64,000 nucleotides of DNA. It comes from a candidate division TA06 bacterium B3_TA06 (GTDB lineage Bacteria; Hydrothermota; Tepidihabitantia; B3-TA06). The notes below the pieces were generated by a model. It saw only the letters and a list, made by a program, of their open reading frames with translations, was not told the DNA's origin and did not search any database. The stretch is taken from the NCBI GenBank assembly GCA_005223075.1, contig NJBO01000007.1:1-64000 (forward strand), read 5' to 3'. This document shows, piece by piece, positions 487-57,497 of the stretch (the stretch's first letter is position 1; every line of letters starts with the position of its first letter). The translations under genes were made by a program, and so were the position numbers.

Positions 487-933
487 TTAAGAGTCAGCGG
501 GTGCAGGTATGGTGTGGTTAATTACGAAAAGTTCTTCCTCAGGCTCGGTAAGCATCTGGCGTCCCAGCCTGTCCGCGCCGTCCCAGTCGTGGGCGGTAGC
601 TATTCGCGCCTTGGCTTCATCGGTCAGGCAGACCTCAATGCCTTCGGAGCCGTCAGCGAGCTCAAAGCGGACACGCGGCTCGCCCTCGTCGGATACGGTG
701 ATGTTGCCCTTGCCAAGGGTACAGCACGAACCGAGCTGAACACCGTCGGTAAAGCATGAGATCGGGGTTTTTGACCCTGTCATGGTATGCGCACGCTTGG
801 CAAAAGGATCATCCCCCAGTATTCTGTTGGCGATAAGCCCGGCGCGGTAGCCGAGCACCAGATAAGGGCCGATGTGTCCGTGGAACCGGTTAAGGAAGAA
901 AAGCGCCTCCTCGTGCGAGAGTTCTTTATGCAT
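487..933 (-). CDS. FmdE-domain (formylmethanofuran dehydrogenase subunit E-like) protein
   Basis: A 148-residue single-domain protein of the FmdE N-terminal type. The diagnostic FHGHIGPYLVLGYRAG lies near residues 17-32, with a Cys-rich block SCFTDGVQLGSCCTLGKGN near residues 59-77. His and Cys in these blocks bind metal in the family. Stand-alone FmdE proteins occur outside methanogens and their reaction is generally unknown; a link to molybdenum or tungsten enzymes is family inference only. I chose the ATG at 933 because a promoter (939-966) ends 5 nt before it. An in-frame upstream ATG at 966 would start inside the -35 box. Transcript probably leaderless. Confidence 0.8.
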   Translation of the reverse strand: MHKELSHEEALFFLNRFHGHIGPYLVLGYRAGLIANRILGDDPFAKRAHTMTGSKTPISCFTDGVQLGSCCTLGKGNITVSDEGEPRVRFELADGSEGIEVCLTDEAKARIATAHDWDGADRLGRQMLTEPEEELFVINHTIPAPADS

Positions 934-938
934 CCCCG

Positions 939-966
939 ATTCTAAACGAGCTGGCTTTCGAGTCAA
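939..966 (-). promoter_or_regulatory. sigma70-type promoter of the FmdE gene
   Basis: On the minus strand TTGACT (961-966) and TAGAAT (939-944) are 16 nt apart. The gene's ATG begins 5 nt after the -10 box, so the transcript should be leaderless. Confidence 0.65.
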
Positions 967-1054
967 GGGTTATAAAATGCCAACGCGGAGCTGCCGCTAC
1001 GTCACGGGTTGCTGACCGGGGTCCACATCGCTGAGGGACGCGGTGGGGTTTTAC

Positions 1055-1082
1055 TTGACAAGCGCGAGGAAGGATGTAGACT
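1055..1082 (+). promoter_or_regulatory. promoter of the first DUF3795 gene
   Basis: TTGACA (1055-1060), 16 nt, TAGACT (1077-1082), followed by a short leader with an AGAGGAGG ribosome-binding site at about 1093-1100. Confidence 0.6.
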
Positions 1083-1104
1083 TTTGTGTCCAAGAGGAGG
1101 ATGC

Positions 1105-1548
1105 ATGAAGTACGAGACTGAAAAGCGGGTGTTTTTATCATGCTGCGGCTCCTACTGCCATACCTGCGACTGGTTCAGCGGTCGCATCCGCGCCCAAAGC
1201 GAGGGCACGCGGCGCATGCTTGCCGAGTTCGATGGCTTCCCCAAGCTGTTCGGCGAGGAGGGAGAAAAGATCGCAAAGGCCATGGCGAGACTCTCCACGA
1301 CCTCGATCTGCTCCGGCTGCCAGCAGGAGGGAGGGGTTGGCGACCGCTGCTCCATCCGCGCATGCTGCCACTCAAAGGAACTAACCCACTGCTCGGAGTG
1401 CCCTGCGTTCCCGTGCAAGATGCTTTCCGAAAACCCTGGTGTGCGTAAGTTCAAGACATTGGAGAACTTCGAGGCCATCAAAAGAGAAGGCTGGGAGGCG
1501 TGGGTGGATCGTCAGTGGAAGGAGCACATAGAGCGCTCCGCTAAATAA
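1105..1548 (+). CDS. DUF3795 cysteine-rich protein
   Basis: A 147-residue cytosolic protein rich in paired cysteines: FLSCCGSYCHTCDW near the N terminus, then CSGCQQ, CSIRACC and CSECPAFPC. This is the DUF3795 arrangement, presumed zinc or metal binding, with no established function. The ATG at 1105 is chosen because the GAGGAGG at 1094-1100 is 4 nt upstream; an earlier in-frame start at 1009 lies before the promoter. A second, shorter DUF3795 gene lies at 49778-50080. Confidence 0.8.
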   Translation: MKYETEKRVFLSCCGSYCHTCDWFSGRIRAQSEGTRRMLAEFDGFPKLFGEEGEKIAKAMARLSTTSICSGCQQEGGVGDRCSIRACCHSKELTHCSECPAFPCKMLSENPGVRKFKTLENFEAIKREGWEAWVDRQWKEHIERSAK

Positions 1549-1581
1549 GGAGTATAAACATGATCTCACAAAGGAGGTAAC

Positions 1582-2277
1582 GTGAAAAAAGTCTGCGCTA
1601 TAGTGCTGCTCGCCGCAACTCTCCCGCTTCTTGCCAGCGAAACCAATACCGTCTCTGCACAGGGCTACGCTTGCTTCCTTGTTTTACCTGACGCCGCAAC
1701 AGTGAATCTGAATGTTAATGTATGGTCAAAGGACATCTCCGATCTGCATAAGAAAAGCGATGAATCCTTGGCCAAGCTCTCACGGAAGCTGGCGAAAGCC
1801 GGCCTCAAGGAACCATTAAGAAAAGACGGATATGCAAGTTTGACCCCCGAGTTGTACTCAGAGGAAGTTGAATACAGGTTGCGTCTTAACGTGATTATGA
1901 TTGTTGATGACCTTTCGATTATTGACGATTTGCTTGGCGTGTTACCCACGCATGTCTTAAGAGACTCGGATGCAAGCATGGTCGCTTCTCCCTCAACCAT
2001 ACAGTATACGATAAAGGACCCCTCCCCCTATGTGAACGATTTGCGAAAGAAGGCGCTGGAAGATGCCAGGGCAAAAGCCGTTGAGTTGGCTGCGATTCAG
2101 GGTAAGCGTCCAGGCGATCTTATAGACTTTGGTGAGGAGGAACTCTCGGTAGGCTCAATGGCCTTCCAGAGCTTCGGGATGATGAATTTCGAGTCGGAAG
2201 ACAAGAGCGCGGGCAGTCCCTTGCCTAGATTGCTCATGGAGTGCAAAGTAACCGCCACTTACGAACTGGTTGAATAG
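1582..2277 (+). CDS. SIMPL (DUF541) domain exported protein 1
   Basis: A 231-residue protein with a signal peptide (residues 1 to about 20) followed by a SIMPL/DUF541 domain. The QGYACFLVLPDAATVNLNV segment matches the usual start of that domain, where an oxidation-of-proteins-by-substrate strand is followed by alternating beta strands. The C-terminal half contains the DARAKAVELAAIQGKRPGDL helix common in the family. It starts at GTG with AAAGGAGG 5 nt upstream. SIMPL proteins are periplasmic or surface proteins of unclear role (BP26, Irak-pathway homologues). It lies 60 nt upstream of a paralogue and is probably co-transcribed. Confidence 0.8.
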   Translation: MKKVCAIVLLAATLPLLASETNTVSAQGYACFLVLPDAATVNLNVNVWSKDISDLHKKSDESLAKLSRKLAKAGLKEPLRKDGYASLTPELYSEEVEYRLRLNVIMIVDDLSIIDDLLGVLPTHVLRDSDASMVASPSTIQYTIKDPSPYVNDLRKKALEDARAKAVELAAIQGKRPGDLIDFGEEELSVGSMAFQSFGMMNFESEDKSAGSPLPRLLMECKVTATYELVE

Positions 2278-2288
2278 ATCTAAGCTTT

Positions 2289-2312
2289 GCGGCGTTCTTA
2301 AAGTAACGCCGC
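2289..2312 (+). terminator. hairpin between the two SIMPL genes
   Basis: GCGGCGTT and AACGCCGC form an 8-bp perfect stem around an 8-nt loop. No T tract follows, so it may be an mRNA-stabilising or attenuating hairpin rather than a terminator. Confidence 0.5.
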
Positions 2313-2337
2313 TAAAATCCTCAAAAGGAGGTTAAAC

Positions 2338-3045
2338 ATGGCGAGAAGAATCCTTGCCCTCTTGTTCTTTGCTTCAGCGCTGTCAGCGGCACAGATATAT
2401 CTCGCAGATAGCACCGCTTACGTGACCGGTAAGTCTTCGATTCTGGTTCTGCCTGATGCGGCCACCGTGGAGTTCAGAATCGAGATCCGTGCCAGTGATA
2501 TGTCGAAAGTCATCGCAAAGGCAAACGATCTGACTGCAGAGATCACAAAAGAGTTACGCAAGGCGGGAGTAGATCAACCCCTTATCCAGAGCGGCCCGGC
2601 AGACATCTACTCCGAGCTTAACTGGGAATCGCAGCGGCTGGAACACGTGTACGGTCTCCGGCTGGACTGCGCTGTGGACGATCTTTCCAAGGTTGACGAT
2701 ATACTTGTGGTACTTGCAGCGACTTCCTCGGAATCCGAAGGCTCGAGGATCTCATCCTACACGGTTAACTACTTCGTCAAAGACCCGAGCGTCTATCTGC
2801 CTGAGCTACAGGAGATGGCATTGGCCGACGCAAAAACCAAGGCCGAGCAGGCTGCAGCCGCTCACGGTTTGAAGGCAGGCGAGATTCTGGACTCCGATTA
2901 TTCGGAACCCTATTCAGGATATCTTTCGGTGTGGGACCCGTACTCGAGCTGGGACTTTTCGGCAAAAGATATGGGAGGAAAGAACTCATTGCCGCGAGTG
3001 GCTTTGAGTTACGAGATATCGGCAACGTTCAAGCTGATCGATTAG
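2338..3045 (+). CDS. SIMPL (DUF541) domain exported protein 2
   Basis: A 235-residue paralogue of the gene upstream. It has a signal peptide (first 18 or so residues), then YVTGKSSILVLPDAATVEF, matching the SIMPL domain start of the first copy, and a later ADAKTKAEQAAAAHGLKAGEI helix in the same place. Divergence over most of the length indicates an old duplication. The start ATG has AAGGAGG 6 nt upstream. Function unknown; predicted periplasmic. Confidence 0.8.
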   Translation: MARRILALLFFASALSAAQIYLADSTAYVTGKSSILVLPDAATVEFRIEIRASDMSKVIAKANDLTAEITKELRKAGVDQPLIQSGPADIYSELNWESQRLEHVYGLRLDCAVDDLSKVDDILVVLAATSSESEGSRISSYTVNYFVKDPSVYLPELQEMALADAKTKAEQAAAAHGLKAGEILDSDYSEPYSGYLSVWDPYSSWDFSAKDMGGKNSLPRVALSYEISATFKLID

Positions 3046-3049
3046 CAAC

Positions 3050-3093
3050 CTCCGGGGTGCAGCATTGCTTCTGCAAAATCACCCCTTGGAGGC
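3050..3093 (+). other. structured intergenic hairpin
   Basis: CCTCCGGGGTG pairs with CACCCC-TT-GGAGG, and an inner GCAG/CTGC stem sits within the loop. The element fills most of the gap between the second SIMPL gene and the nucleotidase. It has no T tract. Role unknown. Confidence 0.45.
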
Positions 3094-3123
3094 AAGAGAT
3101 AACACGCGAGAATAGGAGGACGG

Positions 3124-6114: not shown

Positions 6115-6354
6115 TTAAGCCGCCTTCACGAACCTTGCGGTGTAGTTGAAGAAGCTGTCCTCGACCGCGTCTTTGGTAAAGCCCGCGTTTAAGGCAAGGC
6201 GAACGGTGGTGCGCTTGAGGGGATAATCCGGGTCAGGGAAAAACTCGGTGATAGCAAGTATCCCGGCAGGTTTGAGGACCCTGTGTGCCTCCAATAACGC
6301 CCTGTGCCGGTCGGGTATCTCCTGCAGAACGGTTATCATGTAGACCAGATCAAG
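6115..6354 (-). pseudogene. 3' tail of a duplicated methyltransferase gene
   Basis: The minus strand encodes the last 80 or so residues of a methyltransferase, ending NYTARFVKAA. Bases 6209-6354 match 8646-8791 of the intact methyltransferase with 4 mismatches in 146 and no gaps, whereas the last 95 or so bases are only loosely similar. At 6354/6355 homology stops abruptly and an unrelated gene tail in the opposite direction begins. The upstream sequence in this frame is not coding, so this is a remnant. Confidence 0.85.
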
Positions 6355-6423
6355 AAAGGCACCGGCACCCTGGCCAACTCCCTGCTGGTGCGATACATAG
6401 AAAGGGTAGGAACGATAAAGTAG
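6355..6423 (+). pseudogene. orphan 3' tail of a second 5'-nucleotidase gene
   Basis: Read on the plus strand this ends GTGTLANSLLVRYIERVGTIK then stop (the quoted part is at 6358-6423). The intact nucleotidase ends TGTLVNDVLVRYVKKMGVIK. The two tails are about 65 percent identical in DNA, so this derives from a related gene, not a recent copy. Everything upstream is missing, replaced at 6354 by the methyltransferase tail. Confidence 0.75.
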
Positions 6424-7949: not shown

Positions 7950-8546
7950 CTACCTCAACTCAACCCTCCAGGCGCGTGGGTTGGAGGAATCGTCGAAGCT
8001 GAACTGCTGGTGGATGATCAACACCTTGCCGTCCTTTGACCACTGTGATACCCAGCAAGGGTAGTTCTCAAGCCCGGACCGGATAGCGGTAAGAACCACA
8101 CCCCGCATATCTTCCAGGTCATAAACGATGGGATTAGGCACGGTGGCAACAAAAAGGTAATCCGAGGTGGGGGAGAAGGTGGCGTAAAGCGCCTGATCCA
8201 CCAAAGCAATAAGCTGGGGATCAGCGGTGGATACGATGAACAGCTTGTAGGTTACAACGTCCAGGCCCCCCTCGCCCTCCTCGCCCTCCTCCTCCTCGAT
8301 TGGCTGACCTAACAGAATCCATTTAGAGTCAGGGGAGATTACGAGGAGAAAGTCCAGGCCTTCAACAACACGCTGGCCTGTCTCGGCATGTTCTAACCAG
8401 TTCTCCGTGGCGCTTCTTTCTAGGGCATCCTCAAGCTCCACCACGTCGAAGCCCACAAGCTCCAACCTGTCCTGGGCAAACCCTGCAGCGGGCAACATCA
8501 GGGACGCAAGGATCATAAGTGCCATAACTCGGCGATCTATAGACAT
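7950..8546 (-). CDS. exported protein of unknown function
   Basis: A 198-residue protein with a signal peptide (MALMILASLMLPAAGFAQ region, ending near residue 24) and no family I recognise. It has a run of Glu and Gly around residues 85-95 (EEEEGEEGEGG) and several ISPDSKW and FSPTSDYLF strand-turn units that resemble WD40- or TolB-like propeller blades, though too few for a propeller. The start at 8546 has GAAGGAG upstream and overlaps the end of the methyltransferase gene by 10 nt, so the two form an operon. Confidence 0.6.
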   Translation of the reverse strand: MSIDRRVMALMILASLMLPAAGFAQDRLELVGFDVVELEDALERSATENWLEHAETGQRVVEGLDFLLVISPDSKWILLGQPIEEEEGEEGEGGLDVVTYKLFIVSTADPQLIALVDQALYATFSPTSDYLFVATVPNPIVYDLEDMRGVVLTAIRSGLENYPCWVSQWSKDGKVLIIHQQFSFDDSSNPRAWRVELR

Positions 8547-9208
8547 ATCGACTCCTTCGGTTTGATAAACCGGGCAGTATAATTCCAAAAGTTTCCAAGG
8601 ACTTTGGCATCAACGAAGCCCGCTTGAGTGGCCTGCTTTATGGTAGTGCGCTTGAGGGGATAATCCGGGTCAGGGAAAAACTCGGTGATAGCAAGTATCC
8701 CGGCAGGTTTCAGGACCCTGTGTGCCTCCAGCAAAGCCCTGTGCCGGTCGGGTATCTCCTGCAGAACGGTTATCATGTAGACCAGATCAAGGGTCGAATC
8801 CTCAAACGACAGCTCGTAAGCACTCGCCTGGATGAGTTTGATGTTAGTGATATCTTGATTCTCAGGTCTGGATAACTTGTTTTCGAGCTGTGCCAACATC
8901 CTGGGCTGAATGTCCAGGGCATACACCTTGCCCTTCTTCCCAACAACTCGTGCCACGAAAGTGGTATAAGCACCGCTCCCGCAGCCTATCTCCAGAACCT
9001 GCGTTCCCTCACTGATCCCGCTGCGGCGGATGAGCTTATCCGCAGGCTGCATCCAGCGACGGAACCAGGAGTCCAGGAACCACCCTGTATATGAGGGAGC
9101 CGGGAATCGCCACAGCTTGCGCACGACTTTGACCAGGGTCAGCCATAAGAAAACGAATCCCAGGATTGAACCTGCAACGATGACGATGATCAGGAGATAG
9201 GTGGGCAT
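8537..9208 (-). CDS. membrane-anchored class I SAM methyltransferase
   Basis: A 223-residue protein. Residues 3-26 or so form one membrane helix (YLLIIVIVAGSILGFVFLWL). A Rossmann methyltransferase domain follows, with motif I VLEIGCGSGAYT, an acidic strand end at VYALDIQPRML and post-motif LDLVYMITVLQEIPD. It resembles UbiE-type Methyltransf_11/31 enzymes; the substrate is unknown, probably a lipid or quinone given the anchor. The start at 9208 is supported by a promoter ending 5 nt before it (leaderless). Its last 250 bp have a partial copy at 6115-6354. Confidence 0.8.
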   Translation of the reverse strand: MPTYLLIIVIVAGSILGFVFLWLTLVKVVRKLWRFPAPSYTGWFLDSWFRRWMQPADKLIRRSGISEGTQVLEIGCGSGAYTTFVARVVGKKGKVYALDIQPRMLAQLENKLSRPENQDITNIKLIQASAYELSFEDSTLDLVYMITVLQEIPDRHRALLEAHRVLKPAGILAITEFFPDPDYPLKRTTIKQATQAGFVDAKVLGNFWNYTARFIKPKESICL

Positions 9209-9213
9209 ATCTA

Positions 9214-9241
9214 ACCCTACGCCTCTTATCTTATTAGTCAA
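9214..9241 (-). promoter_or_regulatory. promoter of the anchored methyltransferase
   Basis: On the minus strand TTGACT (9236-9241), 16 nt, TAGGGT (9214-9219), then 5 nt and the ATG. This predicts a leaderless mRNA and argues against the longer reading from 9298. Confidence 0.55.
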
Positions 9242-9260
9242 GCTAGCATATTTTCGACCT

Positions 9261-9292
9261 GCGACCTTTTTGGCGAAGCCAAAAAGGAGCAT
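9261..9292 (-). repeat. TGCTCC/GATCGCA hairpin element, copy 1
   Basis: On the plus strand TGCGA, a 10-bp stem CCTTTTTGGC/GCCAAAAAGG with loop GAA, then AGCA. The stem pairs perfectly. It lies in the spacer downstream of the 9412-10227 gene and has the same orientation as copy 2. Confidence 0.75.
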
Positions 9293-9387
9293 TAGCATAC
9301 TTCAAGCCTATGCCTTTGAAACCACTAGTCAAGGTAACTCCCCTCTCCCTTTGGGACAGCGTGCAGAGGGGTTAGGGGTGAGGGGAC

Positions 9388-10640: not shown

Positions 10641-10668
10641 TTGACAAGTAAGGCTTGCTGCATATCTT
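10641..10668 (+). promoter_or_regulatory. promoter of the 10675 membrane protein gene
   Basis: TTGACA (10641-10646), 16 nt, TATCTT (10663-10668), 6 nt, ATG. Predicts a leaderless mRNA. Confidence 0.6.
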
Positions 10669-10674
10669 TATGTG

Positions 10675-11283
10675 ATGGTTGATGCGGAAGTGCTTCTTCA
10701 GGCCTACCACTACCTATCCAGCGCCATAGCCCAGGCGTTCGCCGCGCTGATTGCGCTGACCGCGATGTTTTATATCTATAGAAGAGGTGTTCTACGGAGC
10801 AGAATCAAATCAACTGTTGAATCTATGATACCCTTTATTGATCTCATTGACAATGAATCCAAAAGCATCTTAACCCCAGGTAAACTTACAGATCATTTAA
10901 AGCTGCTTTATGGCAAAGAGGTAGTCGAATTCGCTAAGAAGCAATTAGATGATCCTAAAGTGGCCAAGAGGAGGTTGAGAGAGTCTAGAGATTTTTGGGG
11001 AAAACGTCTTAAGGCCAAGGTTAATTATTATGAAGACCTGATTACCTACTCTCGAGGCCTCAGCCGTTATATATATCCGTCAATTCTTCTATCTGCTTTG
11101 ACAATGGGTTTTGGCATTATATCTCTTCTAGCAGGGCCTCTGATTTCTCGGGATCTTTGGCGGTGGGTTGTTATGCTAGGGGAGTCATCGTTTGCATTAC
11201 TAGCTTTGGGCTACACATTAAAGGCTGTGATTAAAATGGTGAGTAAACCGGAGGAGTCTAAAGAAAAACTGAAGGAGGAATAG
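10675..11283 (+). CDS. membrane protein of unknown function
   Basis: A 202-residue protein with three likely membrane helices: residues about 12-32 (SSAIAQAFAALIALTAMFYI), about 128-150 and about 158-182. The segment between helices 1 and 2 is a charged cytoplasmic helix-rich stretch, and the C terminus ends in KPEESKEKLKEE. I know no family for it. The ATG at 10675 is preferred over the GTG at 10672 because it lies 6 nt after the -10 box, matching other leaderless genes here. Confidence 0.6.
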   Translation: MVDAEVLLQAYHYLSSAIAQAFAALIALTAMFYIYRRGVLRSRIKSTVESMIPFIDLIDNESKSILTPGKLTDHLKLLYGKEVVEFAKKQLDDPKVAKRRLRESRDFWGKRLKAKVNYYEDLITYSRGLSRYIYPSILLSALTMGFGIISLLAGPLISRDLWRWVVMLGESSFALLALGYTLKAVIKMVSKPEESKEKLKEE

Positions 11284-15783: not shown

Positions 15784-16896
15784 TTGAAAAGATTCCTACC
15801 CTTCCTTGTGCTCGTGACGCTTTGCTGCACGGGCCTTGAGGAGCCTGAGCTTATCTCACCCGCAGACGGTGAGACTGTGATGACCGCAACACCGAAGTTC
15901 ACATGGCATTCAACACCTGACGCTCGATCTTACTCTGTGGAGATATCAGCGGAGGAGAGCTTTGCCGAAACGATCGATAGCATTATATTCAAAGACACCT
16001 CGTTCATTCTGGCAGATACCCTAAAGCTGGGGCAGGAGTATCACTGGCGGGTAATTGCTCGTAATCTGCAGGGAGTAGAAAGCAACCCGAGCGAACCCGA
16101 AACGTTCCACGTCCAGAGCGGAGTTGGGCTGCTTTCTCCTGCGGCCTACGACAGCACCGCCTGGCCCGAGTTTTCATGGGGAGCTTACCCTGGTGCCTCC
16201 TCTTACAACCTTACCATCTCCTCCTATGCCGACTTCAGGGAGCCTTTCTTCGATACAACGACAGGCTCCACGTCACTGCAGTGGCCTGACAGCCTTGCAC
16301 CGGCCACCTACTTCTGGCGCGTGCAGGCATTTGATGCGAACCGGCCTTTAAGCTCTCCTTCCACCGTTCGACGATTGGTAAGCTACCGACTTGAAGATAC
16401 CTACTTCCCACTTAAACCTGGCCGGTCTCAGACGTTTCAAATCGTTGAACTGAAAGGATTCTACGTTCTGGGGACCCCTAACGAGTGGGATACTACAGAA
16501 TGGGACACCTCGCAATATACAGTAAATGTAGATAATACCTTCGCAGACAAGGAACGTCTCTACTACGTTCTTTCTTCGGATTCCTTTTGGGACATAGGGG
16601 ATAGCGTGGGACTCAAGGACGACTCCCTGTTCTCGCCCGTCTTCTTCATGAGCGAGCTCTATCCGACCGAGAGTGCCATTTTCCGTACCTGGCAGGACTC
16701 GACGTTTACGGTGTTGTGGGACGAAGACACCTTAAGGCTTCTATACACGTACGGTCTCCATCGAGGCTCTCTGGACTCCCTCATTATCCTGCGACTACCG
16801 GGCCAAGGCGTGATCGAGCAAAGACATTATTGGGAGCGCCGGGCAGTTTTAGATACACATGACTGGTTGACCTCCAGGACGAAGCTCCTGCCTTGA
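15784..16896 (+). CDS. lipoprotein with fibronectin-III-like repeats
   Basis: A 370-residue predicted surface lipoprotein. After a signal peptide ending in LVTLCC there are two or three beta-sandwich units. Each unit starts with a phrase such as LISPADGETVMTATPKFTW or LLSPAAYDSTAWPEFSW and ends with EYHWRVIARN or TYFWRVQAFD. These are typical fibronectin type III-like modules of carbohydrate- or surface-binding proteins. The last 150 residues are unplaced. I favour the TTG at 15784, 5 nt after GGAGG, over the ATG at 15772, which overlaps that site. It adjoins purD but shares no function with it. Confidence 0.65.
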   Translation: MKRFLPFLVLVTLCCTGLEEPELISPADGETVMTATPKFTWHSTPDARSYSVEISAEESFAETIDSIIFKDTSFILADTLKLGQEYHWRVIARNLQGVESNPSEPETFHVQSGVGLLSPAAYDSTAWPEFSWGAYPGASSYNLTISSYADFREPFFDTTTGSTSLQWPDSLAPATYFWRVQAFDANRPLSSPSTVRRLVSYRLEDTYFPLKPGRSQTFQIVELKGFYVLGTPNEWDTTEWDTSQYTVNVDNTFADKERLYYVLSSDSFWDIGDSVGLKDDSLFSPVFFMSELYPTESAIFRTWQDSTFTVLWDEDTLRLLYTYGLHRGSLDSLIILRLPGQGVIEQRHYWERRAVLDTHDWLTSRTKLLP

Positions 16897-16920
16897 CTTC
16901 GCCACCTACAACCGTATATT
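16893..16920 (+). promoter_or_regulatory. promoter of purD
   Basis: TTGACT (16893-16898), which overlaps the end of the upstream gene, then 16 nt and TATATT (16915-16920), 6 nt and ATG. Predicts a leaderless purD mRNA. Confidence 0.65.
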
Positions 16921-16926: not shown

Positions 16927-18213
16927 ATGAAGGTGTTTGTGCTTGGAGGGGGCGGAAGAGAGCACTCGTTGGGCTACAAGCTTGCGCAATCGGCTGATGT
17001 AGATGGGCTTTTCTTCCTGCCAGGTAACGGGGGAACGGCAAGGCTGGGCGAGAATTTGCCTATCTCTCCAACGGATGTTGATGCGGTTCTTGCGGCTGCA
17101 AAGGAACATAAACCAGGCCTCGTGGTTGTCGGCCCGGAGACACCTTTGTTTGCAGGGATCTCCGATCGTCTGACACAGGAGGGCTTCCGCGTCTTGGGGC
17201 CCTCAACAAAGGCCGCGATGCTTGAGCAGGAGAAGGCGTTTGCCAAGGAGTTCATGAAAAGACACCACATCCCTACGGCTTCCTTCAAGGTCTTCACCGA
17301 TATTGCCTCGGCAAAACACTATGTGGAAGGCAAAGACTCTCCCCTGGTCGTTAAGGCATCCGGCCCTGCTTTGGGCAAGGGGGTGATCGTTTGCTCCACC
17401 CCGCAGGAGGCGCTCGCCGCCGTTGATAAGATGATGGCCGAGCGCAAGTTCGGCCGGGCAGGGGATCGAGTCGTTGTTGAGGAGCGGCTGGTGGGTGAAG
17501 AGGTATCCATCCTGATACTCACTGACGGCGTCAACTACATCACCTTCCCCCCGGTGCAGGATCATAAACCGATAGGAGAGCGAGATACCGGCCCAAACAC
17601 TGGCGGTATGGGGGCCTACGCATCTGCGCCGCTGGTCGATGCGCCTCTCCTTGAGCGGATAGAGGACGAGATAATCCAGCCAGTTCTCGCAGGACTCCAG
17701 ATGGAGGGCATCGGCTACCGCGGGGTTCTCTACATGGGACTGATGGTGACTCAAGAAGGTCCAAAGGTGCTCGAGTTCAACTGCCGGTTCGGCGATCCGG
17801 AGAACCAGCCGTTGATGATGCTCATAGATGAAGATCTGCTCCAGCTACTCGTGGATACTGCAAGGGGTAGGCTTACGACCCGCAGGGTAAAGACTCGTCC
17901 GGGAAGTGCTTTATGCGTTGTGGCGGCCTCAGGCGGCTATCCAGGGGTGTACGAAAAAGGGAAACAGATAAGGTTGAATGTAGAGGAGAACTCTGATCTT
18001 GTCTGCTTCCATTCCGGGACCAAGGAACAGGAAGGAAAGCTTTTGACCTCGGGCGGCCGGGTGCTTGGTGTCACCGCGTTCGCATCCGATCTTAGAGAAG
18101 CCAAGGAGCGTGCCTACGCACCGCTTGAGGAGAAGCGTATCTACTTCGACGGCATCTACTTCCGCCGGGACATAGGCGATAAAGGTATAAGGAGGCTGGC
18201 AAATGAGCTTTAA
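16927..18213 (+). CDS. purD: phosphoribosylamine-glycine ligase
   Basis: A 428-residue enzyme of full family length. It ligates glycine to phosphoribosylamine with ATP (purine pathway step 2). The N-terminal domain begins MKVFVLGGGGREHSL, the ATP-grasp shows LVVKASGPALGKGVIVC, and the metal/active-site segment is DTGPNTGGMGAYAS with VLEFNCRFGDPENQ. It overlaps purE by 11 nt, and the two genes form an operon with the CDF and YrdC-fusion genes. No ribosome-binding site precedes the ATG, in line with a leaderless start. Confidence 0.95.
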   Translation: MKVFVLGGGGREHSLGYKLAQSADVDGLFFLPGNGGTARLGENLPISPTDVDAVLAAAKEHKPGLVVVGPETPLFAGISDRLTQEGFRVLGPSTKAAMLEQEKAFAKEFMKRHHIPTASFKVFTDIASAKHYVEGKDSPLVVKASGPALGKGVIVCSTPQEALAAVDKMMAERKFGRAGDRVVVEERLVGEEVSILILTDGVNYITFPPVQDHKPIGERDTGPNTGGMGAYASAPLVDAPLLERIEDEIIQPVLAGLQMEGIGYRGVLYMGLMVTQEGPKVLEFNCRFGDPENQPLMMLIDEDLLQLLVDTARGRLTTRRVKTRPGSALCVVAASGGYPGVYEKGKQIRLNVEENSDLVCFHSGTKEQEGKLLTSGGRVLGVTAFASDLREAKERAYAPLEEKRIYFDGIYFRRDIGDKGIRRLANEL

Positions 18214-35690: not shown

Positions 35691-35718
35691 TTGACAAATC
35701 CTTCGTATCTCGGATAAT
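35691..35718 (+). promoter_or_regulatory. promoter of the barrel-like gene at 35725
   Basis: TTGACA (35691-35696), 16 nt, GATAAT (35713-35718), 6 nt, ATG at 35725. Confidence 0.65.
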
Positions 35719-35724
35719 ATGGAG

Positions 35725-37086
35725 ATGGTCCTAGTGTTGTTACTTCTCGGGGAGGTCTCGCTCTCTGGCGTCAACACAACCCATCTGTGGCTGGAGACCC
35801 CGCACTGGTCATCCCAGTTTTATAACGAAGCCGAGGCCGATCTTTTCGTTGATCGCTTCCGCATCGGCGGTCGGTTCCTTCTGGATGCCGAGAACCTTCG
35901 CGACACCCTGGAGAGGATAGGGATAAGCCAGCGCTACCTTGGGTATGAAAAAGACGCTGTGAGTCTGTGGCTTGGCAACTACTACGAGACCCTGGGGCAT
36001 GGGCTGGTTCTCTCATCGTTTGAGGACAAACCCCTGCGCATAGATCGCAACCTGGATGGGGGGTGGCTGCAATGGGCGAGTCAATATGTGGGAGTTGAAG
36101 TCCTTGCGGGTCGGATGCTTACTGAAGACAAGGTAACACGTGATGACTGGCTCTATGCAGTGAACGCAACGATCCTTCCCATCGAGAATCTGGAGCTTGG
36201 TGCGATCTACCTGCGGCGCGACGCGACCCAGGATGCGGATACTCTGTTCGGACGCGCGTTCGAGGAGTGGGCCGAAGAGAATCTTACTCTTCGCTTGTGG
36301 CGCTTCGATTTAACCGCTGCCGCGGCCCAGCGCTTCACCTGGGGACGCCGCTCCGCAGATGGATGGGTAGGCACCAACAACATCAATGGCCTTGGCCTTA
36401 CCGCTTCCCTCTCCTACTCCCAGAAGGGCATAGGCATCCTTCTTGAGGCAAAGGACTACCGCGGTCTTGCAGGCGGGATCAACGCCCCACCCCCATGCAA
36501 CCTTGACCAAGAGTCCATAAACCAGGGTGCGGACGAGCAGGGATACCACCTTGCACTGAACCTGGCTCCATGGGATTGGCTCTGGGTTGACGCCTCATAC
36601 TCATCAGCCTGGGATTCGACCAGGGAGAGCACACTGGATCGCATAGGGGTTGAGCCCCGTATTGACCTGGCAGGCCACACCTTCATACCCTTCTTTACCT
36701 TGATCGAGCGTGAGATACCCGGCGCACTTAACCCTGAGAACGACCGGCTGGAGGCTGGGCTATCCTACGAGACGCTCATCCGTGACTTCTCGCTTCATCT
36801 TAAAGGTTCCTATCGCCACGTGAAAGAAGTAACCGAGGCATGGGATGAGCCTCGCGTGCTCGTAGAGCTTGGCTGGCGCTCGTTCGCGGTCTCAGGGGGA
36901 GGAGTTGCGGAGATCAAGGGAGAGCCGGAACTCTGGCCCTGGGGCGCTATCCGCTACAACGCCTACCCATTCGATCTTACCCTCTCCTACGGGCGGTTTA
37001 AGGGCTCCTATATCTGCAAGCACGGTGTTTGCGCCTACGAGCTGCCTTTTGAGGGTATCAAGGCAGATGTGACACTGTACTTCTAA
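35725..37086 (+). CDS. DUF6029-like outer-membrane beta-barrel protein
   Basis: A 453-residue exported protein of alternating short strands, with the RFRIGGRFLLDAENL, YLGYEKDAVSLWLGNYYETLG and GLVLSSFEDKPLRIDR phrases seen in the DUF6029 family that accompanies Omp28 genes in Bacteroidota. The barrel-like pattern continues to the C terminus, ending in an aromatic residue (Phe), as outer-membrane barrels do. I set the start at 35725, 6 nt after the -10 box; the ATG at 35719 abuts the box. A TGCTCC-type hairpin follows 3 nt after the stop. Confidence 0.65.
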   Translation: MVLVLLLLGEVSLSGVNTTHLWLETPHWSSQFYNEAEADLFVDRFRIGGRFLLDAENLRDTLERIGISQRYLGYEKDAVSLWLGNYYETLGHGLVLSSFEDKPLRIDRNLDGGWLQWASQYVGVEVLAGRMLTEDKVTRDDWLYAVNATILPIENLELGAIYLRRDATQDADTLFGRAFEEWAEENLTLRLWRFDLTAAAAQRFTWGRRSADGWVGTNNINGLGLTASLSYSQKGIGILLEAKDYRGLAGGINAPPPCNLDQESINQGADEQGYHLALNLAPWDWLWVDASYSSAWDSTRESTLDRIGVEPRIDLAGHTFIPFFTLIEREIPGALNPENDRLEAGLSYETLIRDFSLHLKGSYRHVKEVTEAWDEPRVLVELGWRSFAVSGGGVAEIKGEPELWPWGAIRYNAYPFDLTLSYGRFKGSYICKHGVCAYELPFEGIKADVTLYF

Positions 37087-37195: not shown

Positions 37196-37228
37196 TGCGA
37201 TCTTTTGCGCGAAGCGCAAAAGGAGCAC
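37196..37228 (-). repeat. TGCTCC/GATCGCA hairpin element, copy 7
   Basis: TGCGAT, stem CTTTTGCGC/GCGCAAAAG with loop GAA, then GAGCAC. The cyclase gene's stop codon on the minus strand overlaps its edge by 1 nt. Confidence 0.8.
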
Positions 37229-37689
37229 TAAATATTCTCTGAGCAGGCCAGGCCCTCGCGGTCAGGGGCAGAAAGCGCCTCCCAGGCCGATGGGCCAAGG
37301 ACTATGTTTTTTTCAGCTTTGGCCGCGCGCTGCATGTTCTTTGCGGCCTGGTTGACCGGTTCTCCAATCACGTCGAACCACTGCAGCTCGCCCCTGCCAA
37401 AGGTTCCCTGAACGATCTCTCCATGCTCGATCCCCACATGAGCCTCGCGTTTTTTACCCAGATCACGGGCGAAGCTAACCGCGTTATCGGGGCTCTCAAA
37501 GAGCAAAAGTCCCGCATCTCCCATGAACTTAACTACTCGACCGCCATGCTTGGCTGCCGCCTCTATGACACCTCCGTAGAAGGAATCAAGATCGGCGGCA
37601 ATATCGGCTGCATCCCTGCCCTGAACCTGGTTATACCAGCCTTTAAGATCGAAAAACAGCACCGTTGCGTTTGTTTTTGATTTTTTCAT
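37228..37689 (-). CDS. stand-alone class III nucleotidyl cyclase domain
   Basis: A 153-residue protein that is one adenylate/guanylate cyclase catalytic domain. It has VLFFDLKGW with the first metal Asp, VVKFMGDAGLLLFE with GD (the second metal Asp) and FDVIGEPVNQAAKNMQ in place of the usual DYxGxxVNxAaR. The final Arg is Lys, so transition-state stabilisation may be weaker. There is no sensor, membrane or HAMP domain; it would dimerise in the cytosol. No cyclic nucleotide receptor is nearby. Confidence 0.8.
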   Translation of the reverse strand: MKKSKTNATVLFFDLKGWYNQVQGRDAADIAADLDSFYGGVIEAAAKHGGRVVKFMGDAGLLLFESPDNAVSFARDLGKKREAHVGIEHGEIVQGTFGRGELQWFDVIGEPVNQAAKNMQRAAKAEKNIVLGPSAWEALSAPDREGLACSENI

Positions 37690-37730
37690 ATAATAAGACT
37701 AGGTCAATTAAGTTGGTTGTCAAGGTTACC

Positions 37731-45396: not shown

Positions 45397-46143
45397 TCAT
45401 CTCCACAGGTTCCACAATCCCAAGCGGGGAACAAGGAAAAGCGCCTGCCAGATGATGCGTCTGCTAAGCTTGGAGACCCCAACGCGTCGGTCTTGGAAGA
45501 TTATCGGGATCTCACGCACACGAAAACCGGCACGCCATACGCGGTAGTCTATCTCTATCTGGAATCCGTAGCCGTCTGCGGTGATATCATCGAGGTGGAT
45601 GTGGCGGAACACCTCGGTTCGGTAGCACTTGTATCCTGCGGTCATATCCTTGATGGGTGTGCCCGTGCCGAAGCGGGCGTAGATGTTGGCGTAGTGGGAC
45701 AGCAGCATCCGTTTGGGCGGCCAGTCTACTATCGCGCCGCCGGAGACGTAACGGGAGCCGATCACCAGATCAGCCCCACTCTCTAGCTCGGCCACGAACC
45801 GCGGGAGATCATGCGGATTGTGCGAGAAGTCGGCATCCATCTCGAACGCGTAGTCGTAGCCCCGATCAAGCGCCCAGCCGAACCCCAGGATGTATGCCGT
45901 ACCCAAGCCCAGCTTGCTCTCGCGCTCCAGGAGGTGAAGCCCGGAGTCGTTCCTCATTTTTTCCTTCACCACCTCAGCCGTACCGTCAGGGGATGCATCG
46001 TCGATAACCAATACATCCGCCTGGGGCAGATTTTCGTGCACCGCATCGATTATCCCGTAGCGGGAAGGATCGCGCCTGCCGCCTGAGCGTGGAACGATGT
46101 TCTCACGCTCATTATAAGTAGGAATAATCACCACTCCTTGCAT
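45397..46143 (-). CDS. dolichol/polyprenol-phosphate mannosyltransferase-like glycosyltransferase
   Basis: A 248-residue GT2 enzyme. It opens VVIIPTYNERENIVPRSGGR, then VLVIDDASPDGTAEVVKE, with the metal site FEMDADFSHNP and the RYVSGG loop, all typical of Dpm1-type polyprenol monophosphomannose synthases. It would charge a lipid carrier for glycan or protein glycosylation. It sits upstream of the rhamnosyltransferase-like gene. The promoter (46152-46180) lies 8 nt before the ATG. Confidence 0.88.
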   Translation of the reverse strand: MQGVVIIPTYNERENIVPRSGGRRDPSRYGIIDAVHENLPQADVLVIDDASPDGTAEVVKEKMRNDSGLHLLERESKLGLGTAYILGFGWALDRGYDYAFEMDADFSHNPHDLPRFVAELESGADLVIGSRYVSGGAIVDWPPKRMLLSHYANIYARFGTGTPIKDMTAGYKCYRTEVFRHIHLDDITADGYGFQIEIDYRVWRAGFRVREIPIIFQDRRVGVSKLSRRIIWQALFLVPRLGLWNLWR

Positions 46144-46151: not shown

Positions 46152-46180
46152 ATTATATCCGAATCCAGTGGTTTTGTCAA
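46152..46180 (-). promoter_or_regulatory. promoter of the glycosyltransferase pair
   Basis: On the minus strand TTGACA (46175-46180), 17 nt, TATAAT (46152-46157), 8 nt, ATG at 46143. A very short or absent leader. Confidence 0.7.
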
Positions 46181-46294: not shown

Positions 46295-46657
46295 CTACCA
46301 CTCCTGTAGCCCGGTGATCGTAAGGTTAGCTTGGAGTTCTGTCAACCGTTTGAGTGTATCGCGGATCGCCCAGCTCTCGCCCCACGGCATCTGGGTGTCA
46401 AAGATCACGTCTATCCTGCGTGGGGTACGCACCTTTGCGTATCTTTCCCAAAGCTCCTTTAAGGAGATTTCTTCGCCGTTCAGGCTGAGCCCTTGCGAGG
46501 CAACCTGGAGTGTATCTATTGCCTCAGGCGGCGCCACTTTCCTGCGCAGCAGATACAGGCTGAGAACAAGCCCGAGGATCACAACCAGCGATATAAGGAT
46601 CGGCCTGGATAGGATCCTTGCGCGGGGCAGCCGATCGCGACGTCGTGGAATACTCAC
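46295..46657 (-). CDS. small membrane-anchored protein, ExbD-like
   Basis: A 120-residue protein: basic N terminus, one membrane helix (about 17-37, ILISLVVILGLVLSLYLL), and an exported C-terminal domain with FDTQMPWGESWAIRDTLKRL that resembles the ExbD/TolR periplasmic domain. No exbB or tonB gene adjoins it. The GTG start at 46657 is chosen because a promoter ends 6 nt before it; the longer frame to 46828 would start upstream of the promoter. Confidence 0.45.
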   Translation of the reverse strand: MSIPRRRDRLPRARILSRPILISLVVILGLVLSLYLLRRKVAPPEAIDTLQVASQGLSLNGEEISLKELWERYAKVRTPRRIDVIFDTQMPWGESWAIRDTLKRLTELQANLTITGLQEW

Positions 46658-46663: not shown

Positions 46664-46691
46664 ATTATAGTCATAAATCGAAGCGGGTAAA
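46664..46691 (-). promoter_or_regulatory. promoter of the ExbD-like gene
   Basis: On the minus strand TTTACC (46686-46691), 16 nt, TATAAT (46664-46669), 6 nt, GTG at 46657. Predicts a leaderless mRNA. Confidence 0.6.
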
Positions 46692-49743: not shown

Positions 49744-49771
49744 TTGACTATTACTCCGGTAAGCGTAGGAT
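49744..49771 (+). promoter_or_regulatory. promoter of the second DUF3795 gene
   Basis: TTGACT (49744-49749), 16 nt, TAGGAT (49766-49771), 6 nt, ATG at 49778. Predicts a leaderless mRNA. Confidence 0.6.
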
Positions 49772-49777: not shown

Positions 49778-50080
49778 ATGAGCGATCCTCTAGCGGGTTT
49801 TTGCGGGGACTACTGCGGGAAGTGTCCGAACTATCCTCGCAAGTGCGCCGGATGCATCCCGGAACAACATCAAGGCTGCCACTTTATCCAGTGCTGCCTG
49901 GCGAAAGGGATCGAGCACTGCGGGTTCTGCGAAGACCTGCCGTGCGCCAAACTTGCCCGCTTTATCCCCGATGATCGCCCTGGATGCCCGCCCGGCTATC
50001 ACATCGAGAACCTCGTGGAACGAAGCCGCATCGGCACCGAAGCCTGGCTTGCAACACAACGAGCAAAATGGGGGAGCTGA
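49778..50080 (+). CDS. DUF3795 cysteine-rich protein, short
   Basis: A 100-residue protein with the DUF3795 Cys pattern FCGDYCGKCPNYP, CAGCIPEQHQGCHFIQCC and HCGFCEDLPCAKL. It resembles the 1105-1548 product but lacks its C-terminal part. Metal binding is likely; function unknown. Translation appears leaderless. Confidence 0.78.
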   Translation: MSDPLAGFCGDYCGKCPNYPRKCAGCIPEQHQGCHFIQCCLAKGIEHCGFCEDLPCAKLARFIPDDRPGCPPGYHIENLVERSRIGTEAWLATQRAKWGS

Positions 50081-52659: not shown

Positions 52660-52687
52660 TTGACTTGAGGTGTTAGAGGAATAATCT
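52660..52687 (+). promoter_or_regulatory. possible promoter of the SPASM radical SAM gene
   Basis: TTGACT (52660-52665), 16 nt, TAATCT (52682-52687). A further stem AACCCCTT/AAGGGGTT precedes the ATG at 52746, whose ribosome-binding site is AAGGGG. Confidence 0.5.
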
Positions 52688-52745
52688 AGAAGATGCTAAA
52701 GAAACCCCTTATCAATCCGACACTCACGCTGCGGAAAGGGGTTGA

Positions 52746-53747
52746 ATGAAAGGCAATACCCTTCGAGGCTTGGTGCAGACCTCCGCCGCCCCGCGCAGAG
52801 CAGCTTACCGGATTCTAAAAAACCCATGGCTCAATCGCAACCCGATCTACCGCCGCGCCTACCGCAGACGAATCAAGCGCGTCATCCAGCGCTACAGCGA
52901 CTTCCCCCGAACCGTATCCCTGGAGACCTCTGCATTCTGCAACGCCCGCTGCGTGATGTGCACCTATCCCGCTATGAAGCGAGCCAGGGGACGTATGTCT
53001 TGGAGTGTCTTTGCCGATGCCGTAGACGAGTGCGCCCGCTGCGGCCTCGAAACCCTATACCTTTCAGGATTCGGCGAGCCGCTCACCGATAATGAACTGG
53101 CCGCAAAGGTAGCCTACGCCCACTCCAAGGGGCTCTGGACCTCCATCGTCACCAACGCCTCGCTCCTGGATGAACGCCGCACAGCAGAACTCATCAATGC
53201 CGGGTTGGACGAGGTAAACGTCTCCATCGACGGCTTCAGCCCAGAGGTCTATAACAAGATCCGCATAGGGCTCGACTTCGATGTGGTGGCAGAAAACATC
53301 CGCAGGCTATCCCGACTCAAGCGCGGCGGCAAACCAGCATTGAACCTTGAGATGGTGTTGATCGGGTCAAACTGGGATCAGGTCGCCATTGCCCGCCGCG
53401 ACTGGGGTGCAATTGTAGATTCAATCGTCGTCCGACAGCCCCAGGACTGGATCGGAGGAATAGAACTTGAGCCGGAGGTCTACACCCCGCATCGCGGTCG
53501 CAGGAGAAGGTTCTGGCCGCCGTGCATCTATCCCTTCACCCAGCTGAACGTCTACTGGGACGGCACGGTGCCCATCTGCTGTCTGGATTACGAGGCTGAG
53601 GGATGGGTAGGGCGTTTCGGTAAAAAGAGCCTCGTTGAGATATGGCAAGACCAGGCGATTAACCATTACCGCAAGCGTCACCTGGCCCAGGACGGACGCC
53701 TTCCATCACCCTGCAACCGCTGCTCCTACTTCTCGGTGTGGTGGTAA
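52746..53747 (+). CDS. radical SAM/SPASM protein
   Basis: A 333-residue enzyme. An N-terminal basic extension (1-55) precedes the radical SAM core SAFCNARCVMCTYP (CxxxCxxC), and the C-terminal half has a SPASM-like Cys cluster CIYPFTQLNVYWDGTVPICC and PSPCNRCSYF. SPASM proteins modify peptides or make cofactors and often act on a small nearby protein. The neighbours are two Lpp-like lipoproteins and two surface lipoproteins; no Cys-rich short precursor is visible. A possible target remains open. Confidence 0.85.
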   Translation: MKGNTLRGLVQTSAAPRRAAYRILKNPWLNRNPIYRRAYRRRIKRVIQRYSDFPRTVSLETSAFCNARCVMCTYPAMKRARGRMSWSVFADAVDECARCGLETLYLSGFGEPLTDNELAAKVAYAHSKGLWTSIVTNASLLDERRTAELINAGLDEVNVSIDGFSPEVYNKIRIGLDFDVVAENIRRLSRLKRGGKPALNLEMVLIGSNWDQVAIARRDWGAIVDSIVVRQPQDWIGGIELEPEVYTPHRGRRRRFWPPCIYPFTQLNVYWDGTVPICCLDYEAEGWVGRFGKKSLVEIWQDQAINHYRKRHLAQDGRLPSPCNRCSYFSVWW

Positions 53748-53751: not shown

Positions 53752-53779
53752 TTGACAAAAAAGTATTCAGGCCGACAAT
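53752..53779 (+). promoter_or_regulatory. promoter of the second family A gene
   Basis: TTGACA (53752-53757), 16 nt, GACAAT (53774-53779), then TAAGGAGG and ATG at 53798. Confidence 0.6.
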
Positions 53780-53797
53780 CCTCATAAGGAGGCATAA

Positions 53798-54943: not shown

Positions 54944-56242
54944 TTAAAACCAAGTTTTGAAAATTTCGTAGATTCGATTAACTACCCAAAGGGGTATAAA
55001 TCCTTCAGTTGGATCCAACAGAAGTGGGAGTACCCCACCTTTGTCCTGTATCAGAGGTAACTGGAATCGCTTACTTAGAGCAATGGTATACCAGAGACAT
55101 ACACCAAAGCATTGATCCTCCGTGAATTTGACAAATTCCCCTCCGCTATCACTTACAGGGAGAGGAATCATACCGTTCATTTTTGTTAAAAATGAAAGCC
55201 ACTCCTTTCGCATATTGCCCTCAAAGAACCCGGTGGGATGTTTGAATCCAAAGCTCATACTTTCTAAAGGTCGGATTTTGATGATCTGCAGAAAGGTTGT
55301 CATCGTTCTGTGCACTATCCTGGGGTTTATCTCTCCTGTCATAGACCAAAGATTTGCGAGCGCACGTAGGAAGTACATATTCTCGTTGCGACGCAACCAA
55401 TCAGAATACGGTAAATAAGTCGCTAGGCACTTCTCGATTGTTCCTTTTCCAAGTCGATACGCATGTCTAATGATTTTATCTAGATATTGATGTCCCCAGT
55501 GGTATTGATAATGTATATTTAGCATATTAGCAAATACTTCATCATCAATACCTAAAACAGTCACTACCCTCGATAAGTAAAGAAAATTCTTTAACTGATC
55601 AAGCAATAAAATTGCCCGATCAGGAAGACACCGATCCAAATCGTCAACGACCAGGATTAAAGTCTCGTCTTTTTTCAACAGGCTGTCAATCGCCTTGCAA
55701 AGATTGGTTCGGGTTTCCTCCACCGCATCGATCTGTTTCTTTTGTTCTCCTTCGATTAACTCCAGAGCTTCTTTATAGAATTTCTTAGCATCTTCTGTCA
55801 CTTTACCGATTCCCAGCAATGATGTTCCCGCGTCAACAACAAGTCGTAAGGCCGCGATCGCACCTGCGGTAAACTTAACACCTATCTCTGTGAGAGTTGT
55901 ATTATCTTGAGGCGCAATCTCTTTTTCTATCTTCCTCAACAAACCCAGGAATAGCTGTTCCTTATCTGCATGATCATACCACCAAGGGTCAAACCAAACG
56001 GTTTTGTAACCATTACGTGCCTTAAGGCAATCCTGAATTGCACGCATCATTGATGTTTTACCACTACCCCAACGACCGTAAACCCCATAGATAAGTGGCG
56101 TTCCAAATGCTTCAATATCGGTAACAATATTCTCCGCAACTCCTTTGAACCCCAGCTTATCCCATTCTTCCCAGTTGAATTTAGGGTCTTCAAAATCAGG
56201 CTCTTCAGGCGGAAAAACTGATTTCTCTTCTTGCTCATTCAT
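54944..56242 (-). CDS. KAP-family P-loop NTPase
   Basis: A 432-residue NTPase with a KAP domain. Walker A is YGRWGSGKTSMM (about residues 55-66); Walker B is LILVVDDLDRC, followed by the KAP-typical LDQLKNFLYLSRVVTVLGID. The insert between the motifs has a possible membrane-associated stretch (VKFTAGAIAALRLVVDAGTS). KAP NTPases occur in membrane-linked and phage-defence systems, but a partner gene is missing here. The gene is AT-richer than its surroundings. The start has GAGGAGG upstream. The 11-bp repeats lie 170 nt upstream of it. Confidence 0.8.
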   Translation of the reverse strand: MNEQEEKSVFPPEEPDFEDPKFNWEEWDKLGFKGVAENIVTDIEAFGTPLIYGVYGRWGSGKTSMMRAIQDCLKARNGYKTVWFDPWWYDHADKEQLFLGLLRKIEKEIAPQDNTTLTEIGVKFTAGAIAALRLVVDAGTSLLGIGKVTEDAKKFYKEALELIEGEQKKQIDAVEETRTNLCKAIDSLLKKDETLILVVDDLDRCLPDRAILLLDQLKNFLYLSRVVTVLGIDDEVFANMLNIHYQYHWGHQYLDKIIRHAYRLGKGTIEKCLATYLPYSDWLRRNENMYFLRALANLWSMTGEINPRIVHRTMTTFLQIIKIRPLESMSFGFKHPTGFFEGNMRKEWLSFLTKMNGMIPLPVSDSGGEFVKFTEDQCFGVCLWYTIALSKRFQLPLIQDKGGVLPLLLDPTEGFIPLWVVNRIYEIFKTWF

Positions 56243-56390
56243 TCAATCCTCCTCGGTTTGGTTATATGATAATGAAATTTCAAAAAAGTCAAGCTATCCG
56301 GCGCAGGTTGGTTATGGAACCTCGGAACAATGTCCAGCTTTTTTTACCCCAGATGTCCGCTTCGTGTACGCCCGGGGACCCATACGGTTC

Positions 56391-56411
56391 GCCGTCAGCC
56401 GTGAGCTGTCA
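56391..56411 (+). repeat. heptanucleotide repeat, three units
   Basis: GCCGTCA, GCCGTGA and GCTGTCA in 7-nt register, matching the repeat at 13722-13749, and directly adjoining the 11-bp array. Confidence 0.6.
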
Positions 56412-56414
56412 TTT

Positions 56415-56469
56415 GTCCAACTTTTGTCTACCTTCTGACCACCTTTTGTCCAGTTTTTGTCCATAAAAC
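56415..56469 (-). repeat. 11-bp tandem repeat array, five units
   Basis: On the minus strand: GTTTTATGGAC, AAAAACTGGAC, AAAAGGTGGTC, AGAAGGTAGAC and AAAAGTTGGAC, in exact 11-nt register. The consensus is that of the array at 4587-4719. Confidence 0.8.
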
Positions 56470-56479
56470 CTGCAGCCCC

Positions 56480-56507
56480 TTGACCCCCTTCTATAAATGA
56501 ATAAAAT
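56480..56507 (+). promoter_or_regulatory. promoter of the PflA-like radical SAM gene
   Basis: TTGACC (56480-56485), 16 nt, TAAAAT (56502-56507), 6 nt, ATG at 56514. Predicts a leaderless mRNA. Confidence 0.6.
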
Positions 56508-56513
56508 TCCCGA

Positions 56514-57497
56514 ATGAGCGATAGTTTTCCCCGCTACCTTGGCCTGGTGCGCTCCGGCGAGCTGGACGAACGAATCAGACGAGCGTGGCAACTCGCGGAA
56601 AACTGTAACTTATGCCCACGCGCCTGCGGGATCAGGCGACTTGAGGGCGAGAAGGGGGTCTGCAAGGCTGGTGACGTGCTGCGGGTCTCCTCGTTCATCA
56701 GACACCTTGGCGAGGAGCCGGTGCTTTCCGGCTGGCGCGGATCCGGAACGGTCTTCTTCTCACACTGCTCGCTGCGCTGCCGATACTGCCAGAACTGGCA
56801 GCTGAGCCTGGAGGGTGAGGGCGTGAATATATCCATTGAGGACTTCGCAAAGGGGATGCTTAAGCTCCAGAAAGCCGGCGTTCACAACATCAACTGGGTC
56901 ACGCCATCACACTATCTACCCTGGCTTCTTGAGGGTCTTAAGATCGCTGCCGAGCAAGGCCTTCGCCTGCCCCTGGTTTACAACTGCGGGGGATACGAGT
57001 CGCTTGAGGCTTTAAGGCTTCTGGACGGGATCGTAGACATCTACCTCCCAGACGCAAAGTACGCTGATTCAGAGCTTGCAAAGAAGCTGTCAGGAGCGCA
57101 GGACTATCCCGAGGTAAACCGTGCCGCCCTTGCTGAGATGTGGCGGCAGGTGGGCGATCTTGAGACCGATGATGAGGGGGAGGAGGGCGTCGCGCGTAAG
57201 GGGTTGATCGTGCGACACTTGATGATTCCAGGCGAGACCGAGAACACGAGAGGTGTGTTACGGGTGTTAGCCGAAACCGCTGGAGTTCAGGTGGCTATCT
57301 CACTCATGGGTCAGTACTTCCCGACCTGGAGGATGAAGGGTACGCCTTACGATCGTACCATCACCCGTGCCGAGTATCAGGAAGCCGCCTCCTACATGTT
57401 CGATTTAGGCTTTTCCAACGGCTGGGTGCAGGAGAGGCTGGGGGTGGAGTTAAGACATCGTCCGGATTTCCGCCGGGATGAGAAGGAGATACGATAA
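56514..57497 (+). CDS. PflA-like radical SAM protein (COG1313 type)
   Basis: A 327-residue radical SAM protein. A Cys-rich N terminus (NCNLCPRACGIRRLEGEKGVC) is followed by the core FFSHCSLRCRYCQNWQLS with CxxxCxxC, WVTPSHYLPWLLEGLKIAAE, and RHLMIPGETENTRGVLRVLA. This is the uncharacterised pyruvate-formate-lyase-activase-like group. The usual substrate is unknown; a glycyl-radical enzyme partner is not in the window. It ends RHRPDFRRDEKEIR; a related tail is at 59351-59419. Confidence 0.83.
   Translation: MSDSFPRYLGLVRSGELDERIRRAWQLAENCNLCPRACGIRRLEGEKGVCKAGDVLRVSSFIRHLGEEPVLSGWRGSGTVFFSHCSLRCRYCQNWQLSLEGEGVNISIEDFAKGMLKLQKAGVHNINWVTPSHYLPWLLEGLKIAAEQGLRLPLVYNCGGYESLEALRLLDGIVDIYLPDAKYADSELAKKLSGAQDYPEVNRAALAEMWRQVGDLETDDEGEEGVARKGLIVRHLMIPGETENTRGVLRVLAETAGVQVAISLMGQYFPTWRMKGTPYDRTITRAEYQEAASYMFDLGFSNGWVQERLGVELRHRPDFRRDEKEIR

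Follow-up and report, generated by a model that had tools for sequence, protein, structure and literature searches.

How does a message begin when its start codon lies a few nucleotides past the -10 box of a promoter? The question is raised by a 64,000-nucleotide stretch of DNA, called the window here (contig NJBO01000007.1, positions 1 to 64,000), from candidate division TA06 bacterium B3_TA06. The host is a WOR-3 metagenome-assembled genome (MAG), and the present NCBI name of its phylum is Candidatus Stahliibacteriota. A sequence-only reading of the window had reported eight places with a single arrangement, TTGACN-N16-TANNNT followed after 5 or 6 nt by a start codon, and had proposed leaderless mRNAs. 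Six of the eight are exact (starts at 933, 9208, 10675, 16927, 49778 and 56514), whereas the site at 46657 has TTTACC as its -35 hexamer and the site at 35725 has GATAAT as its -10 box and a rival ATG at 35719. That these starts lack a ribosome-binding site was borne out, with a Shine-Dalgarno (SD) sequence, counted here and below when at least 5 nt long, preceding 0/8. Further sites with the exact geometry lie at 9298, 37689 and 52693, and one more, at 46143, has a spacer of 17 and a start codon 8 nt past the -10 box. It is very probable that the start codon of such genes lies at or near +1 of a sigma-70-type promoter with a spacer of 16, so that the mRNA would carry neither leader nor SD; the exact +1 and leaderless initiation are what we infer from the sequence.

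The arrangement was counted against controls in the whole genome (2.41 Mb in 42 contigs). The pattern TTGAC-N17-TANNNT, which corresponds to a spacer of 16 between the -35 and -10 hexamers, occurs 21 times in the window as compared to 1.07 in shuffles, and 798 times genome-wide as compared to 39 for a reversed-pattern control. With an ATG required 5-6 nt further on, 186 matches were found genome-wide and 0 in the reversed control; with the ATG shifted to 11-12 nt past the -10 box there were 28 (control, 4). The full geometry, with either ATG or GTG as start, was found 9 times in the window as compared to 0.04 in dinucleotide shuffles. A genome-wide count against controls was the check that had been set for the proposal, which withstood it. 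Only the imperfect sites at 35725 and 46657 would suggest that the matches are an artefact of chance or base composition. All of the control counts, together with the 0-11 matches in each of the genomes of other phyla reached via PurD, already refute such an artefact, and its probability is vanishingly small.

Gene-level work was done in detail on an 855-kb sample (35% of the genome), in which a home-made hexamer model called 738 genes; the distance in nt between the -10 box and the start codon is referred to as the offset. Spacer preference in this sample was marked, with 279 occurrences at 16 and 87 at 17 over a background of about 25-30 at other spacings. The 16-nt spacing is a strong preference with some use of 17, starts lie 5-8 nt past the -10 box, and the geometry is sharp, not absolute. 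It had been called rigid; the arrangement is indeed far above chance, but the word is too strong for promoters in which a spacer of 17 and offsets up to 8 occur. The elements are those of sigma-70-type promoters, with TTGACA- and TATAAT-like hexamers and a 16-18 bp spacer, and the base preferences of the hexamers were examined as well. When no -35 was required, TANNNT stood at offsets 5 and 6 of 26 and 41 genes, respectively, compared to about 11 expected. A large separate class of leaderless genes with a -10 box only was considered and rejected, the excess being modest (about 45 genes in the sample at offsets 5-6).

If these codons start translation, they should belong to the reading frames of the genes that follow. 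For strict promoters with a spacer of 16, an ATG or GTG at offsets 5-8 was in frame with the gene and within 60 nt of its coding-score start in 75/111 cases, compared to 18/88 at the other offsets from 0 to 15 (Fisher p 2e-11). The in-frame coding score at starts with offset 5-8 averaged +10.0 over the 90 nt downstream and -18.9 over the 90 nt upstream. A strict promoter at offset 5-8 was found for 97 genes (13%) of the sample, or for 68 genes (9%, about 8% after background correction) when only the model's own start was accepted. The share of genes that look leaderless from their sequence thus seems to be about 8-13%, roughly one in ten, next to a working SD system.

The presence of an SD depended strongly on the position of the promoter. 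Only 4/68 genes at offset 5-8 had one, as compared to 85/117 genes with a promoter 17-60 nt upstream (p 3e-20), and in the wider leaderless set it was found in 3/97. Offsets 9-16 were represented by 18 genes only. This two-humped distribution, with few genes between the humps, is expected if a leader is either absent or long enough to hold an SD. The anti-SD is intact, as the 16S rRNA 3' end reads GGATCACCTCCTTTCT. Ribosomal protein S1, whose loss might have been a correlate of leaderless starts, is apparently present: rpsA was matched strongly, at 545 bits, slightly below the curated cut-off of 577. The second codon was compared between leaderless and SD-led genes and was A-rich in both, with nothing distinctive. 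An upstream neighbour on the same strand and no more than 40 nt away was seen for 1/97 strict leaderless genes as compared to 139/321 SD-led genes, a difference to be read with the caution that a promoter needs such room anyway.

Homologues were examined for three of the genes, and in all three cases the geometry is kept through changes that include the spacer sequence, the start codon and a shift of the offset by 1 nt. The purD gene (16927..18213, +) follows the promoter TTGACT-N16-TATATT (16893..16920, +), with its ATG at 16927, and its Pfam GARS_N match begins at residue 1, which supports this start. Its product is 98% identical to PurD of Candidatus Stahlbacteria E44_bin36 and 92% identical to that of a WOR-3 MAG. 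Upstream of purD in six relatives of the same family (98, 92, 71, 69, 65 and 63% PurD identity), TTGAC[AT]-N16-TATA[TG]T is kept with the ATG 5 or 6 nt on; the sequence of the spacer differs among the six despite the fixed geometry. In some relatives farther removed, purD is SD-led, coupled or short-leadered. The gene for a radical SAM protein of 327 aa (56514..57497, +; PF04055, E 6.3e-9) has its ATG at 56514 behind TTGACC-N16-TAAAAT (56480..56507, +), and the geometry is retained in six relatives, three of which have a GTG at offset 5 in place of the ATG at offset 6 and one of which has a spacer of 17. For the class I methyltransferase of 223 aa (8537..9208, -; PF08241, E 6.8e-23), behind TTGACT-N16-TAGGGT (9214..9241, -) with its ATG at 9208, a spacer of 16 and an offset of 5 are shared by three relatives of other species.

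The ATG or GTG might instead mark the start of transcription only, with translation beginning at a downstream codon that has an SD. A few genes do have other in-frame starts close by, but an SD at any in-frame start within 60 nt was found in only 11/97 leaderless candidates, homology of PurD runs from residue 1, and the codon itself is where coding signal and protein conservation set in; we regard this alternative as highly improbable. That the codon at the promoter is the true translation start is supported computationally by the coding-score step, the frame test, the GARS_N match and the N termini of homologues. The leaderless proposal is backed by independent lines of evidence: by gene frame, by coding signal at the codon, by an absence of SD confined to genes whose promoter is 5-8 nt away, and by conservation in homologues.

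A gene expressed in this way would use a sigma-70-type promoter, TTGACa-N16-TAnnnT, with the 16-bp spacer favoured. Where such a promoter drives the first gene directly, the start codon would often stand 5-8 nt past the -10 box, at the expected +1 base or no more than about 2 nt from it, and the mRNA would then begin at or almost at its AUG or GUG. Such mRNAs would be translated without an SD, probably by 70S ribosomes as in other bacteria. Promoters at least 17 nt upstream would give leader mRNAs with an SD able to pair with the intact 16S anti-SD.

Several points weigh against this reading. The +1 base is deduced rather than mapped, and the assignment of genes as leaderless is computational; the gene calls are home-made and the sample is about a third of the genome. 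Initiation in E. coli usually falls one nt farther past the -10 box than the 6 nt implied by an offset of 5. For this reason some transcripts might begin one base inside the start codon or have leaders of 1-2 nt. Base composition 3' of the -10 box in leadered promoters gave no sharp +1 signal. It could be argued that the promoters are real and that RNA polymerase starts at a slightly shifted position, leaving leaders of 1-5 nt, so that these mRNAs would be ultra-short-leadered, not strictly leaderless. Genes at offsets 7-9 also exist, and in two genomes of family f10 (G110 and G105; 400-kb samples, loci L107-L126 and L147-L166) gene starts are scattered over offsets 5-12, mostly without SD, which suggests leaders of a few nucleotides in that family. 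In the genome of the window, however, gene starts peak sharply at offsets 5-6 and fall off at 7, as expected with the start codon locked to +1, and we consider a shifted start unlikely here. The same 5-6 peak recurs in a genome of family f5 (G076, 400-kb sample), where an SD preceded 0/24 starts. Three genomes outside the host's class (G052, G130 and G056) were sampled as well, in amounts of DNA too small to give a profile of offsets.

Promoter-ATG matches were counted genome by genome across the phylum (147 genomes). In families f1-f5 and f9 most members reach about 90-190 matches each, members of f6-f8 and f10 mostly have about 20-90, and some outer families (f30, f31) have intermediate numbers. 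Families f17-f27 (genomes G017-G056) have almost no promoter-ATG matches, and in them TTGAC-N17-TANNNT hardly exceeds the reversed control, if at all; some of these genomes even have fewer occurrences of the pattern than of the control. Within the host's class several families commonly have the trait, and there are other families of the phylum in which the promoter form could not be detected. We tentatively suggest that the mode of gene start may have changed several times within the phylum, with several families pairing the 16-bp-spacer promoter with exact leaderless starts, at least one (f10) moving toward short leaders without SD and others losing the promoter form, and with some leaderless starts opening coupling mini-ORFs. 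Since families next to each other differ in this respect, gain and loss of leaderless expression can be compared naturally within the phylum.

Comparable arrangements are known elsewhere. In Deinococcus-Thermus, TANNNT also lies about 6-7 bp before the open reading frame (ORF), without SD and alongside SD-led genes, and this placing of the -10 next to the ORF has experimental support (PMC12340547). Unlike Deinococcus-Thermus, the WOR-3 host has a clear -35 at a 16-bp spacer with the -10, and a predicted leaderless share of about 8-13%. In the passages of their survey drawn on here, Zheng et al. (2011) called leaderless (TA-led) genes in 207/953 bacterial genomes from many phyla, with averages among positive genomes of 13.3% in Acidobacteria and 15.8% in delta-Proteobacteria and none in most bacterial genomes (PMC3160421). 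The TA-led signature described there, TANNNT about 10-12 bp before the start codon, is common to those genes and to the WOR-3 host; the groups named in these survey passages do not include WOR-3 (PMC3160421). As cited in the StartLink paper, GeneMarkS-2 predicted 21.6% of 4,769 bacterial species to be leaderless users, a group that resembles the host in combining leaderless and SD-led transcription in one genome, and no statement on WOR-3 was found there for this group (PMC9581028). In Mycobacterium tuberculosis a large leaderless fraction is reported from experimentally mapped 5' ends (PMC3898074), whereas that of the WOR-3 host is predicted computationally.

The sequence-only reading had known of leaderless mRNAs in Actinobacteria, Deinococcus and archaea and of no description for this kind of bacterium. 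No paper joining 'leaderless' and 'WOR-3' was found in the literature searched; leaderless genes have nevertheless been reported in many more bacterial groups than were listed (PMC3160421, PMC9581028). The mechanism is a known one and the lineage is new to it; its distribution within the phylum is informative. Predicted leaderless expression on a genome-wide scale is thereby extended to WOR-3, a phylum whose members are known almost entirely from metagenomes, and the signature is clean enough for correcting gene starts and marking promoters directly in MAGs. A WOR-3 isolate, strain sy37, is now available for comparison and clusters with lineages mainly from hot environments (PMC12285271); it may lack the trait.

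Other genes in the window have the same layout. A promoter TTGACT-N16-TAGAAT (939..966, -) stands 5 nt before the ATG (933-931) of a putative leaderless gene for an FmdE domain protein of 148 aa (487..933, -; PF02663, E 2.3e-19), whose coding score rises at the start. TTGACA-N16-TATCTT (10641..10668, +) precedes the ATG at 10675 of a predicted leaderless gene of 202 aa without Pfam match (10675..11283, +), for which the GTG at 10672 is an alternative start. TTGACA-N16-TAGTCT (37696..37723, -) is followed by the ATG at 37689 of a nucleotide cyclase-like gene, also predicted to be leaderless (153 aa; 37228..37689, -; PF00211, E 3.4e-7), and TTGACT-N16-TAGGAT (49744..49771, +) by the ATG at 49778 of a likely leaderless DUF3795 gene (100 aa; 49778..50080, +; PF12675, E 1e-5). 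TTGACA-N17-TATAAT (46152..46180, -) lies at offset 8 from the ATG at 46143 of a family 2 glycosyltransferase gene (45397..46143, -; PF00535, E 2.4e-25), which is probably leaderless or has a 2-nt leader. The two imperfect sites are candidates: TTGACA-N16-GATAAT (35691..35718, +), before an ATG at 35719 or 35725, and TTTACC-N16-TATAAT (46664..46691, -), before the GTG at 46657 of a weak gene whose ORF has no Pfam match and a weak 5' coding score.

The methyltransferase gene is preceded by two strict promoters 91 bp apart, both followed at offset 5-6 by an ATG in frame. The second (9305..9332, -) serves an ATG at 9298, which lies 90 nt farther upstream than the start at 9208, and the same scan detected none at this upstream position in three relatives. 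An inverted repeat, CCTTTTTGGCTTCGCCAAAAAGG, lies between the two promoters (9208-9332, -). At 6121-6357 (-) there is an 80%-identical coding copy of residues 139-217 of this methyltransferase, and genome G057 has a similar pair of matches on one contig.

Short ORFs were found behind some of these promoters. TTGACT-N16-TAATCT (52660..52687, +) is followed, 5 nt past its -10 box, by the ATG at 52693 of a putative leaderless mini-ORF of 18 codons (52693..52749, +), whose stop overlaps (ATGA) the ATG at 52746 of an ORF of 333 aa (52746-53747). A few more promoters of the 855-kb sample are likewise followed by the start of a mini-ORF (6-47 codons) with a stop at or overlapping the start of the next gene (e.g. 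offsets -4, -1 and 0), which suggests leaderless mini-ORFs coupled to the downstream gene. A leaderless-looking short ORF of about 74 aa at C1:16836 (-) of G000 (locus L017), MKRFKVLFKPEPDGGYTASVPSLPGC, resembles by eye a HicB-type antitoxin, and a short ORF resembling this HicB-like candidate lies at C1:288253 (+).
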